Shown: positions 18,598-34,232 of the stretch, piece by piece
Position numbering within the stretch: the stretch's first letter is position 1
How the letters are laid out: every line of letters starts with the position of its first letter
Assembly (NCBI GenBank): GCA_028819505.1
Contig: JAPPLH010000069.1
Span: forward strand, 1 to 34,232
DNA length: 34,232 bases
Direction of reading: 5' to 3'
Source: Acidimicrobiaceae bacterium
GTDB lineage: Bacteria > Actinomycetota > Acidimicrobiia > Acidimicrobiales > Aldehydirespiratoraceae
Program-made: the position numbers and the translations under genes
Notes under the pieces: generated by a model
What the model was told of the DNA's origin: nothing
What the model saw: the letters and a program-made list of their open reading frames with translations, nothing else
Database searches by the model: none

Positions 18598-18660
18598 GAA
18601 GGGCAAGGGTAGGCGGCAACGTGGACGGGCAGTCACCGCCTCGCGGCGCAGCGGTGTCTC

Positions 18661-18720
18661 CCACTCTTGCTCGCTTCGCTCACGGGCCGCTCGGGCCGCG
18701 GCCTCGCAGGCTCGGCCTCA
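18661..18720 (-). repeat. Dispersed gene-end repeat, copy A (after recO)
   Basis: Read on the minus strand it begins at the recO stop (TGAGGCCGAGC) and continues GCGAGGCCGCGGCCCGAGC, then GGCCCGTGAGCGAAGCGAGC and AAGAGTGGGAG. The core can fold as GGCCGC-GGCCCGA-GCGGCC. The 12 bases beyond (GGGAGACACCGC, sense) are also shared with copy B. Confidence 0.85.
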
Positions 18721-20231: not shown

Positions 20232-21173
20232 CTACCCCGTGACCCGCCGACGTGGCGCGCCTTGTCCGCCGCGGCGCTGCCAGTTCTTGTCCACCCGTAC
20301 CGTCAGCTGCAGGTAGGCGCCCTCTGGGAGCTGCGAGCGCACCGCCGTCCCGACCGCTTTGAGCATCGACCCGCCCTTGCCGATCACGATCGCCTTCTGG
20401 GAGGGGCGCTCAACGGTGATCTCGCAGCGGATCAGGGGCCAGTCCCATTCCGTCACCCGGGTCGCGATCGCATGGGGCAGTTCGTCGCGTGCGGCGGCCA
20501 GGAGCTGCTCCCGCACCAGCTCGGCCACCCGGAAGGCCTCCGGGGCGTCCGAGACGGCGCCGTCGGGGTAGAGGGCCGGGCCCTCGGGCAGGCGGCCCAC
20601 GAGGTGCTCGACCAGCGCATCCACACCCTGGCCGGTGCGCCCGCTCACGGGGAAATAGGCCTCAAAGTCCAACCCTCCCATGGCTGCGAGCTGCTCCAGC
20701 ATCGCCCGCCGTCCCACCAGGTCGGCCTTGGTCACGGCCACCACGGAGTCCCCCGGCAGCGACCGGGCGACGAAGGCGTCGCCGCGGCCGTAGGGCGCCG
20801 ACGCGTCGATCACCAGGCACGTCACGTCGGTTCCGTGCAGCGCCTCGTTCGCGGCGGCGTTCATCCGGCGCCCGAACTCGGTGCGAGGCTTGTGAATGCC
20901 GGGCGTGTCGACCAGGACCATCTGGGCGCCGCGCCGTGTGAGCACCCCCCGCAGCCCGGTGCGGGTGGTCTGGGGCTTGTCCGAGACGATCGACACCTTC
21001 TGCCCGACGATCCTGTTGACCAGCGTCGACTTGCCCGCATTGGGACGGCCCGCCAGCCCGACGATCCCGCACCGGTGCGAGCCCGGCTCGGGCGGTGTCT
21101 CCCGCTCGCGCTCGCTGCGCTCACGGGCCGCTCGGGCCGCGGCCTCGCTGCGCTCGGCCCCGGGATCCGTCAT
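20232..21173 (-). CDS. era: GTPase Era with repeat-encoded N-terminal extension
   Basis: The protein is 313 aa from the ATG at 21173, which overlaps the corC stop as ATGA; the much longer frame to 21701 runs through corC and is discarded. Era is an essential GTPase that binds the 3' end of 16S rRNA and helps mature the 30S subunit. Motifs: G1 GRPNAGKST (42-50), G2 region PQTTRTG, G3 DTPGIHKP, G4 TKAD, and a C-terminal KH domain with AIVIGKGGSMLKAVG. Residues about 5-26 (AERSEAAARAARERSERERE) precede the G domain and are encoded by a dispersed repeat (copy B). They are absent from typical Era, whose G1 motif usually begins within the first 15-20 residues. Confidence 0.93.
   Translation of the reverse strand: MTDPGAERSEAAARAARERSERERETPPEPGSHRCGIVGLAGRPNAGKSTLVNRIVGQKVSIVSDKPQTTRTGLRGVLTRRGAQMVLVDTPGIHKPRTEFGRRMNAAANEALHGTDVTCLVIDASAPYGRGDAFVARSLPGDSVVAVTKADLVGRRAMLEQLAAMGGLDFEAYFPVSGRTGQGVDALVEHLVGRLPEGPALYPDGAVSDAPEAFRVAELVREQLLAAARDELPHAIATRVTEWDWPLIRCEITVERPSQKAIVIGKGGSMLKAVGTAVRSQLPEGAYLQLTVRVDKNWQRRGGQGAPRRRVTG
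21101..21160 (-). repeat. Dispersed gene-end repeat, copy B (corC/era junction)
   Basis: In sense direction it starts about 10 bp after the corC stop and reads GGGCCGAGCGCAGCGAGGCC, then GCGGCCCGAGCGGCCCGTGA and GCGCAGCGAGCGCGAGCGGG. It is in frame with the Era start and so encodes part of the Era N terminus. The following GGGAGACACCGC is shared with copy A. Confidence 0.85.
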
Positions 21174-22045
21174 GTCCTGGTGAGTCGGACCCCGGTGATG
21201 CGACGGCCCTCCATGTGCTCCACCCGCAGCCTGAGGCCGCCGACCTCCACTGTCTCGCCCACCTCGGGCACGTGGCCGAGCGTGCTGAAGATCAGGCCGC
21301 CGACGGTGTCCCAGTCGTCGTCGGGCAGGGCCGCTCCGACGAGGGTGTTCAACTGGTCGACCGGCATGCGGCCGTGAACCAGCGCCTCGCCGCCCGCGAG
21401 GGGCTCCATGAGCGGCTCGGGCCGGTCGAACTCGTCGACGATCTCGCCCACCAGCTCCTCGACGAGGTCTTCGAGCGTGACGAGGCCGGCGGTGCCCCCG
21501 TACTCGTCGACGACGACGGCCAGGTGCCCTCCGGCGGTGCGCATCTCGGAGAGCAGCTCGTCCACCCGCTTGGTCTCGGGCACGAACATGGCCCGGCGCA
21601 TCGACTCGCGGACGGGACGGTCGCCGCCGCCCGAGCGCTCGGTGCGGGCAAGGTCCTTCAGCAGCACGACGCCGACGACGTCGTCGATGTCGTTCCGGCA
21701 CACCGGCAGGCGGCTGAGGCCGCGGCTGATGGCAATCTCGAGCGAGGCGGTCACCGTCATGTCCGCGTCGACGGTGACCATGTCGGCGCGGGGCGCCATG
21801 ACCTCGCGGACCGCGGTGCGGTCCAGGGCGAGAGCGGATGCGATCATGTCGCGCTCGGCGTCCTCGATGGCGTCTGCCTCAGCCGCCGCGTCGGTGAGGG
21901 CGATCAACTCGTCTTCGCTGACCGGCGGCGCCCCGTTCCTCCCCCGCGCGACCCGTCTCCGAACACGGCGCGGCTTCTGGCCGGCGCCGGGCTCGTTCCG
22001 GCCGGTCACGGTTGCCGGCCGGTCACGGTTGCCGGTGGTGCGCAT
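21170..22045 (-). CDS. corC: CBS-domain CorC/HlyC-type protein
   Basis: The protein is 291 aa from the ATG at 22045, which lies inside the end of ybeY; a GTG at about 22009 is an alternative. It has a pair of CBS domains (VREVMAPRADMVTVDADMT; VRESMRRAMFVPETKRV...LAVVVDEYGGTAGLVTLEDLVEE) and a C-terminal CorC_HlyC/transporter-associated domain (GRMPVDQLNTLVGAALPDDDWDTVGGLIFS). It lacks the N-terminal membrane DUF21 segment found in many actinobacterial homologues, so it resembles the soluble YbeX/CorC of Escherichia coli. The family is linked to magnesium/cobalt efflux and to ribosome maturation. The neighbours ybeY, phoH and era support the same setting. Confidence 0.88.
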   Translation of the reverse strand: MRTTGNRDRPATVTGRNEPGAGQKPRRVRRRVARGRNGAPPVSEDELIALTDAAAEADAIEDAERDMIASALALDRTAVREVMAPRADMVTVDADMTVTASLEIAISRGLSRLPVCRNDIDDVVGVVLLKDLARTERSGGGDRPVRESMRRAMFVPETKRVDELLSEMRTAGGHLAVVVDEYGGTAGLVTLEDLVEELVGEIVDEFDRPEPLMEPLAGGEALVHGRMPVDQLNTLVGAALPDDDWDTVGGLIFSTLGHVPEVGETVEVGGLRLRVEHMEGRRITGVRLTRT

Positions 22046-22586
22046 CCAGGAGCTGCTGCTCGCGGGTCTGCATGGCTGCGGCCTCCGCTTCGCGGGCATG
22101 GTCGTATCCCAGAACGTGCAGCACGCCGTGTACGACCAGCAGGGCCAACTCGTCGTCGGGGTCGCCGGCCGGCCGGGGGTTGCCGGACGCGTCGGAATCG
22201 CCGGACGGCCGGGAGTCGCCGGACGGCCGGGAGTCGCCGTTGGTCCGTGCCGCGTATGCGGGGCAGACCACGACGTCGCCCAGCAGCACGGTCGGCCCGG
22301 ACGCGGGCGCGCCGCCGTGGCCGCCGTCTATCGGGAAGGCGAGGACGTCGGTGGGCCCGGCCGTGCCCATGTGGGCCCGGTTGAGCTCGCCCATGGCGCC
22401 GGTGTCCACGAACCGCAGTCCCAGCTCGCCGGATCCGACCCCCTCGTCGCTCAGCACGGCTCGGGCCAGCCTGGCCCAGCGCTCGGTGTCGACCAGGTCG
22501 CTTCCTGCGGCCGGACCGGACGTCTCGTCGAAGGCGCGGACCACCGCTCCGCTAGGAGGCTCGTCCGGGGAGGACGCCGGCACCAT
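22023..22586 (-). CDS. ybeY: Endoribonuclease YbeY with low-complexity insertion
   Basis: The protein is 187 aa; the ATG at 22586 directly abuts the phoH stop. YbeY is a zinc-dependent RNase acting in 16S rRNA 3'-end processing and ribosome quality control. The zinc motif is complete: H153-GVL-H157-VLG-YD-H163. An unusual insertion lies between LGDVVVCPAYAART and DDELALLVVHG (residues about 115-144), made of NGDSRPSGDSRPSGDSDASG followed by NPRPAGDP. It is encoded by near-perfect 18-nt repeats and replaces a helix that normally precedes the catalytic helix. The 3' end overlaps corC by 23 bp. Confidence 0.93.
   Translation of the reverse strand: MVPASSPDEPPSGAVVRAFDETSGPAAGSDLVDTERWARLARAVLSDEGVGSGELGLRFVDTGAMGELNRAHMGTAGPTDVLAFPIDGGHGGAPASGPTVLLGDVVVCPAYAARTNGDSRPSGDSRPSGDSDASGNPRPAGDPDDELALLVVHGVLHVLGYDHAREAEAAAMQTREQQLLDAHHRQP
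22155..22244 (-). repeat. 18-nt coding repeat inside ybeY
   Basis: Units of the type GGCGACTCCCGGCCGTCC (minus strand) occur twice perfectly and then in degenerate form. They encode SRPSGD-like hexads. The unit length keeps the frame, so the number of units can vary. Confidence 0.75.
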
Positions 22587-23600: not shown

Positions 23601-23668
23601 GGTGTTCCCGCTCTTGTTCGCTTCGCTCACGGGCCGCTCGGGCCACGGCCTCGCAAGCTCGGCCTCTA
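23601..23668 (-). repeat. Dispersed gene-end repeat, copy C (after RamB-like gene)
   Basis: In sense direction it begins with the stop codon of the regulator gene (TAGAGGCCGAGC, 23668-23657), then TTGCGAGGCCGTGGCCC, GAGCGGCCCGTGAGC and GAAGCGAACAAGAGCGGGAA. It agrees with copy D over the last about 48 bases with a single mismatch. Confidence 0.85.
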
Positions 23669-31146: not shown

Positions 31147-31243
31147 AGGCCGAGCCGGTAGACCGCACGTCATGGAAACTCCCGCGGGAGGCAAGGCGAG
31201 GCCGTGGCCCGAGCGGCCCGTGAGCGCAGCGAACAAGAGCGGG
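31144..31243 (+). repeat. Dispersed gene-end repeat, copy D (split)
   Basis: TAGAGGCCGAGC at 31144-31155 includes the stop codon of the amidohydrolase. The rest of the unit (GCGAGGCCGTGGCCCGAGC onward to GAACAAGAGCGGG) resumes at 31196 and runs to 31243. Between them is a 40-bp insert (31156-31195) with the palindrome CTCCCGCGGGAG. It leads directly into the UbiD start region. Confidence 0.8.
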
Positions 31244-31245
31244 CA

Positions 31246-33614: not shown

Positions 33615-34232
33615 TCGACAATGAGATCGGCGTTGGTGCGCATGAAGTCAACGTAGGTCTCGGCGCCGCTGCCGGGGGGGCCGAGGCTGCCGGTGTAGAG
33701 CGTGACCACATCGATGTCGCCGACCCGGTCGGCCAGCGCCTCCACGTCGTCCACGGAGTGCAGGGTCTCGGCGAAGATGGCCCCGATTCCCTCGTGCTCG
33801 ATGATCTCGGCCAGCTCCTCGAGTCCGGCGGGGCTGGCCTGGGCCATGCTCGCCGGCGTCGGGATGACCGTGCCGATGAGCTCGAACCCGTAGCGGTCGG
33901 CGAAGTACCCGAGCGCCTCGTGGTTGGTGACCAGCTTGCGGCTCGCGGCGGGAAGCTGCTCGACCTTGGCGGCGACCTCGGCGTCCACTGCCTCCAGCTC
34001 GGCCAGATAGCTGGACAGGCATGCCTCGACGGCGGCGGAGTCGAGGCCCACGTCGCTCGTCAGCACCTGGGCGAGGTTCGGTAGCGCTGCCGACACCCGC
34101 TGCGGATCGAACCACACATGGGGATCGCCACCGCTGCCGTGGCCTTCTTCGTCGTCGTGGTGGCCTTCTTCTTCGTCGGCTTCCTCGTCGTCCTCGTCGT
34201 CGTGGTGGCCTTCTTCTTCGTCGGCTTCCTCG
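33602..34232 (-). CDS. znuA: Zinc ABC transporter substrate-binding protein, C-terminal part
   Basis: The frame is open to the window edge, so the N terminus with the signal peptide is missing; the GTG at 34117 is internal (DPHVWFDP). It is the binding protein of the ABC-3 zinc/manganese importer, located outside the membrane. The conserved DPHVWFDPQRV, a metal-ligand His in VTNHEALGYFADRYG and the FAETLHS segment are visible. Before DPHVW lies an acidic and His-rich linker (EEADEEEGHHDDEDD, about two copies), as in zinc-specific ZnuA proteins, where this loop senses or guides zinc. The acidic content is unusually high relative to His. The permease follows 56 bp downstream. Confidence 0.9.
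   Translation of the reverse strand, partial: EEADEEEGHHDDEDDEEADEEEGHHDDEEGHGSGGDPHVWFDPQRVSAALPNLAQVLTSDVGLDSAAVEACLSSYLAELEAVDAEVAAKVEQLPAASRKLVTNHEALGYFADRYGFELIGTVIPTPASMAQASPAGLEELAEIIEHEGIGAIFAETLHSVDDVEALADRVGDIDVVTLYTGSLGPPGSGAETYVDFMRTNADLIVDALG
34151..34232 (-). repeat. 45-nt coding tandem repeat in znuA linker
   Basis: The segment GTCGTCGTGG ... TTCCTCG (plus strand) repeats with a 45-nt period (from 34151 and from 34196). It encodes 15-residue units EEADEEEGHHDDEDD. The last unit is cut by the window end, so the copy number is unknown. Confidence 0.75.

Follow-up and report, generated by a model that had tools for sequence, protein, structure and literature searches.

In-frame capture of a dispersed repeat as the probable N-terminal extension of the GTPase Era in an Acidimicrobiaceae bacterium

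The window analyzed here, a 34,232-nucleotide stretch of an Acidimicrobiaceae genome (GCA_028819505.1, contig JAPPLH010000069.1), encodes the GTPase Era immediately downstream of a corC-like gene (Table 1). The TGA of the latter and the ATG of era overlap as ATGA, and the junction has no intergenic space. With 283.7 bits, Era exceeds the NCBIfam equivalog threshold of 237 (NF000908), in a family match that spans the GTPase and C-terminal domains (residues 35-303), and the nearest solved chain, 9jkp_B, itself a GTPase Era, covers residues 32-301 of the window protein. The P-loop, GRPNAGKS, is intact, and all its positions except residue 46 are invariant across 27 aligned sequences. The domains are like those of the known GTPase Era, but at its N-terminus the window protein is longer by about 20 residues, which stem from a dispersed repeat present in the window in four copies, including the one within era. 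The first-pass annotation had located this copy between the corC/era overlap and the G1 motif, which is where it lies. Among other features of the window, we observed a perfect 25-nt tandem duplication at 2853-2902, in surroundings that look more GC-rich, and imperfect short-period repeats close to both ends (134-347 and 34125-34232); in an Rfam search of the window, four tRNAs alone reached threshold.

Table 1. Genes, motif and repeat copies at the era locus and elsewhere in the window
Feature	Position	Strand	Remarks
Intergenic repeat copy	18658..18707	-	sense to its neighbours; also in G010; repeat-free site in G013, G008, G015
era (GTPase Era)	20232..21173	-	313 aa; ATG 21171-21173, stop 20232-20234
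G1/P-loop motif GRPNAGKS	21027..21050	-	residues 42-49 of Era
Conserved repeat core in era, ~50 nt	21099..21149	-	nhmmer 42.7 bits; sense strand is the era strand
Repeat-derived codons 6-25 of era, AERSEAAARAARERSERERE	21099..21158	-	match to dispersed repeat
corC-like gene	21170..22099	-	TGA at 21170-21172; PRK15094.1 match 176 bits, below the cut-off of 379
Intergenic repeat copy	23605..23654	-	directly after a TAG stop; in G015, G008; not in G010, G013, G006
Intergenic repeat copy	31196..31245	+	long form, behind a TAG stop; in G010, G008; not in G013

The era copy belongs to the short form of the repeat and is up to 93% identical to other copies in the same genome. The RCG/RSG motif lies 8-20 residues from the initiator ATG in repeat-free Eras and at 36 in the window protein; measured to RCG inclusive, the extension amounts to 19-23 residues beyond the nearest repeat-free relatives (36 vs 13-17), so that the gain of about 22 residues proposed in the first-pass annotation holds. 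Neither the window gene nor that of G010, in which G1 begins at codons 42 and 57, respectively, has an in-frame ATG, GTG or TTG, the other start for which that annotation had proposed to look, between codon 1 and G1; the near-cognate codons in this interval are one ATC (codon 37 of the window gene) and one CTG (codon 40). Judging from the reading frame, the extension is probably translated in the cell. The charged helix that the annotation had envisaged beside the GTPase domain is a weaker proposition: the AlphaFold model does place a helix at residues 4-24, but with low confidence (mean pLDDT of 56, 64 and 46 for the first three blocks of 10 residues, below 50 at residues 24-30), and between this predicted helix and the GTPase domain lies a poorly predicted linker.

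The repeat is abundant in the genome from which the window derives. A 121-nt query around the era copy yielded 44 matches, 40 of the 341 first-look candidates having been scored, and the 20-nt core, when no more than one mismatch is allowed, is found 183 times (85+98) vs 0+1 for the reversed pattern. Within the genus, 15 of 16 genomes contain this core, as do 21 of the 61 genomes searched; its count varies across the genus from 0 in G005 and 13 in G012 to 251 in G004. Of 298 genomes drawn more widely from the order, 17 match a 26-nt core, including four of the five drawn from a second genus (g2) of the same family. Also among the 17, five genomes of another family (f59, genus g68: G094, G134, G191, G215 and G296) carry the core with a nearly constant single mismatch, which suggests that the repeat family is old or was transferred. 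The public records that correspond to the relatives are Acidimicrobiaceae or Acidimicrobiia metagenome-assembled genomes, and, going by their isolate names, the relatives that carry the repeat are presumably sponge-associated. The repeat comes in two forms: in the long form, about 50 nt separate the 5' end, GAGGCCGAGC, from the core, vs about 12 nt in the short form. Long-form copies include L060:3835-3950, L051:4816-4931, L051:11819-11933 and L057:17690-17740; by eye, in the alignment, the second sense frame of several long-form copies opens with ATG and forms an ORF of about 40 codons, M..ARPWPERPVSEANKSGNDTAATRR, directly upstream of the next gene. The multi-copy sites that we inspected are head-to-tail tandems.

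For every copy in the window, there are syntenic relatives with and without the repeat at the site, and at the sites at 23605 and 31196, this presence/absence pattern is discordant with the gene tree. From such differences between relatives, we infer that the repeat inserts by transposition. The description of the repeat as mobile in the first-pass annotation stands insofar as presence and absence differ between relatives at era as well as at other sites, but the search for a mobilizing enzyme came back empty: PF01797, the Y1 transposase of the RAYT type, was detected in none of the 16 genomes of the genus, with the same search positive in 5 of 14 control genomes.

The position of the repeat relative to genes was assessed in 1.55 Mb of sequence (773,132 bases from the window genome and 778,356 from ten relatives, namely, G001, G003, G006, G008-G011 and G013-G015), in which a profile of the 50-nt core gave 135 matches, merged into 116 sites, with genes delineated by a codon-usage gene caller. 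Most of the matches (118 of 135) are intergenic, and only 11 of the 116 sites fall within called genes vs 102 expected from the coding fraction, which implies that the repeat is purged from genes. At intergenic sites between co-directional genes, the sense orientation prevails over the antisense (50 vs 21, binomial p 0.0008); at 26 of the 52 sense sites that have a recognizable 5' end and a gene upstream, the stop codon of that gene is fused to the first G or GA of the element or abuts it (offsets -2, -1, 0). The matches that overlap called genes are also in the sense orientation in 16 of 17 cases. The third sense frame of the repeat consensus contains a TGA, whereas all three antisense frames are open by inspection; the sense bias of the in-gene copies, therefore, does not stem from stop codons.

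Five conserved proteins that have repeat-free homologues were found to contain in-frame copies, as is the case for the Rickettsia palindromic elements (RPEs): Era, GltB, a LigD-polymerase-like protein, a ScrK/ROK-like kinase and NrdJ, with the sense frame EAVARAARERSEQERE used in Era and GltB, and ARPWPERPVSAANKSG in the other three. GltB, the large subunit of glutamate synthase, carries an internal copy in the window genome (1665.6 bits vs a cut-off of 1047); among the relatives, G009 has a 30-nt remnant at this site (27.9 bits), and the ten other genomes of the genus shown have nothing there. The LigD-polymerase-like protein of the window genome, which scores just below its cut-off (210.3 vs 214.7 bits), contains about 46 inserted residues that ten relatives in the genus lack, the match in G008 being only a fragment. 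The ScrK/ROK-like protein, a fructokinase-like kinase that scores below its family cut-offs, carries two copies in G003, whereas 12 genomes of the genus have no copy in it. In NrdJ (1339.2 bits vs 859), a repeat-derived segment shortly precedes the C-terminal cysteine motif in 9 of the 11 genomes of the genus with a match, being absent from G004 and G008, which suggests an old capture. NrdJ and a repeat copy recur with identical scores on two contigs of the window genome's assembly, G000:C87 and G000:C108, suggestive of duplicated or redundant contigs.

Several other candidates were not counted among the confirmed in-gene cases. The copy at G000_C167a 91841 lies in a 60-aa ORF with a score of 8-9, and the gene with the copy at G000_C92 3181 has no family match. 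At G008 26153, the NCBIfam match of the TrpB-like product begins at residue 58, and the true start is probably downstream; the copy at G008 27976 is antisense and at the gene end. At the N-terminus of a PEPC-like protein of G013, the repeat is in frame and no ATG, GTG or TTG follows it, but the N-termini of the relatives are too variable. The four copies in the window genome found to overlap a called gene at its 3' end were likewise excluded.

Across the genus, 15 of the 16 genomes have a full Era match (G004 does not), and inspection of all 15 N-termini, the comparison of Eras with and without the repeat that had been proposed at the outset, identified the insert in two, the window genome and G010, and its absence in 13. 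The G010 gene comes from a separate assembly (VYFQ01000013.1), in which both junctions of the insert are present, and carries two tandem repeat units, the extra 44 nt plus 1 nt adding 45 nt and leaving the downstream frame unchanged, with G1 at codon 57. The first of these units is read in another frame, in which the TGA of the consensus is CGA; given that the T of this TGA is found in 22 of the 26 copies of the first sample, the CGA of G010 alone is only modest evidence. Taken together, the 13 repeat-free homologues, the lack of a start codon ahead of G1 and the frame maintained in G010 bear out the in-frame uptake of the repeat by Era. Era is under purifying selection: for its core, dN/dS is 0.23 in the comparison of the window genome with G010, 0.22-0.25 for pairs that include the window genome, and 0.08-0.17 for the remaining computed pairs, the higher values raising the possibility that constraint on Era in the window lineage may be somewhat relaxed. 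Simple common ancestry of the insert in its two carriers fits the gene trees poorly. In both a five-gene tree and a tree of the Era core, G010 groups with the insert-free G006 rather than with the window genome (support 0.91 and 0.92), so that the shared insert calls for multiple losses, for recombination between lineages or for more than one insertion at the same site. Because the two inserts have identical junctions and belong to the same sub-variant, a single insertion, with later loss or inter-lineage exchange, is favoured over repeated insertion.

The scenario that we consider highly probable is that a repeat copy was captured in frame at the overlapping corC-era junction and persists as an N-terminal extension that is a tolerated passenger. 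The element usually lies between genes, mostly in the sense orientation and often fused to an upstream stop codon; at the corC-era overlap, a copy located 8-9 nt past the corC stop falls inside era, behind the start codon. The inserted copy would by chance have had an open reading frame and a frame-keeping length, and hence have been survivable, yielding an extension of some 20 residues rich in Arg, Glu and Ala, after which selection on the essential era gene would have held the reading frame. The extension itself, we infer, is most likely functionally neutral.

An improbable alternative is that translation begins downstream of the repeat, which would then be 5' untranslated sequence. Many REPs at gene N-termini are possibly extragenic owing to a downstream start, according to a paper on REPs (PMC3733652), and the ATC and CTG near-cognate codons of era could be invoked here; however, neither carrier offers a conventional start before G1, initiation at the CTG would cost the protein the strand leading into the P-loop (E33-41 in the Era model), and G010 keeps the frame despite a 44-nt unit. 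It is also unlikely, if somewhat less so, that the extension was recruited for a function, such as contact with rRNA or a protein through a charged helix. Its retention by two species, one of which, G010, has a second unit, the helix predicted at Era residues 4-24 and the persistence of the repeat-derived NrdJ segment in most of the genus would be compatible with recruitment, whereas most Eras of the genus do without the extension, the two carriers diverge strongly in its sequence, the first G010 unit being in the other frame, and the Era model is of low confidence in precisely this region.

We regard as extremely improbable that the insert is an assembly artefact or a chance stretch of low-complexity, Arg/Glu-rich sequence. 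The own genome is a draft of 167 contigs, and GC-rich repeats may be misassembled, but an insert of about 60 nt is shorter than a typical read, both junctions recur in the independent assembly of G010, and the 42.7-bit nucleotide match of the era copy to the repeat speaks against chance. A broader and rather doubtful proposition is that the repeat, with stop codons as preferred insertion sites, a sense orientation and two open sense frames, is a recurrent source of new peptide modules that, at overlapping genes such as era, are forced into the downstream protein, some of them (the NrdJ linker, the Era helix) having been recruited instead of simply tolerated.

The invasion of proteins by a repeat has been described in Rickettsia and some other bacteria; a literature search, to which subscription journals were largely inaccessible, found no report of the phenomenon in the Acidimicrobiaceae group, of this repeat or of an Era extended by a repeat. 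The findings document protein invasion of the Rickettsia type by a short repeat in Actinomycetota, and the availability of homologous sites with and without the repeat in many sister species makes the fate of the encoded peptides, be it loss, tolerance or retention, traceable across the genus. They also caution that, in a draft genome, an N-terminal extension of an essential protein may be real and stem from a repeat.

Among the known repeat families, the closest parallels are with REPs and RPEs. As described in the REP paper, GTAG and CGTC REPs are mainly intergenic, lying between co-directional genes and near the 3' end of the first of them; the stop codon is often supplied by the REP terminus, many intragenic REPs encode 20-30 amino acids, and REPs of the CGTC type have no dedicated transposase (PMC3733652). 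The window repeat resembles REPs in its intergenic preference, fusion to stop codons and intragenic copies, but differs in that the multi-copy sites examined are head-to-tail tandems, as opposed to the head-to-head dimers of REPs. Identity with GTAG REPs was rejected: in the 67 copies with a recognizable 5' end (from 74 copies of at least 45 bits), the 5' tetranucleotide is CTAG in 19, CCAG in 15 and GTAG in just 3, and the genus has no gene of the RAYT type. A rough test for the CGTC tag placed GACG no further than 40 nt from the 3' end of the core in 30 of the 74 copies. The consulted passages on REPs make no mention of the present repeat and, of the Actinobacteria, name only M. tuberculosis, for untagged REP-like sequences (PMC3733652). 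A conserved RNA hairpin is not supported by covariation, with compensatory change in none of the 15 consensus pairs; the z-scores of stem-loop stability for the four window copies are -1.44, -2.01, 0.18 and 0.77. RPEs are short dispersed repeats that also occur in frame within conserved protein genes, and one RPE-bearing product, Gmk, has been shown to be translated and active (PMC2229807). The RPEs reviewed there are 105-146 bp long, with terminal inverted repeats and long stem-loops (PMC2229807), whereas in the repeat described here, which inhabits an unrelated phylum of hosts, a strong or covarying stem was not found. What the window repeat and the RPEs of Rickettsia have in common is that both are short, dispersed and present as in-frame copies in conserved proteins.
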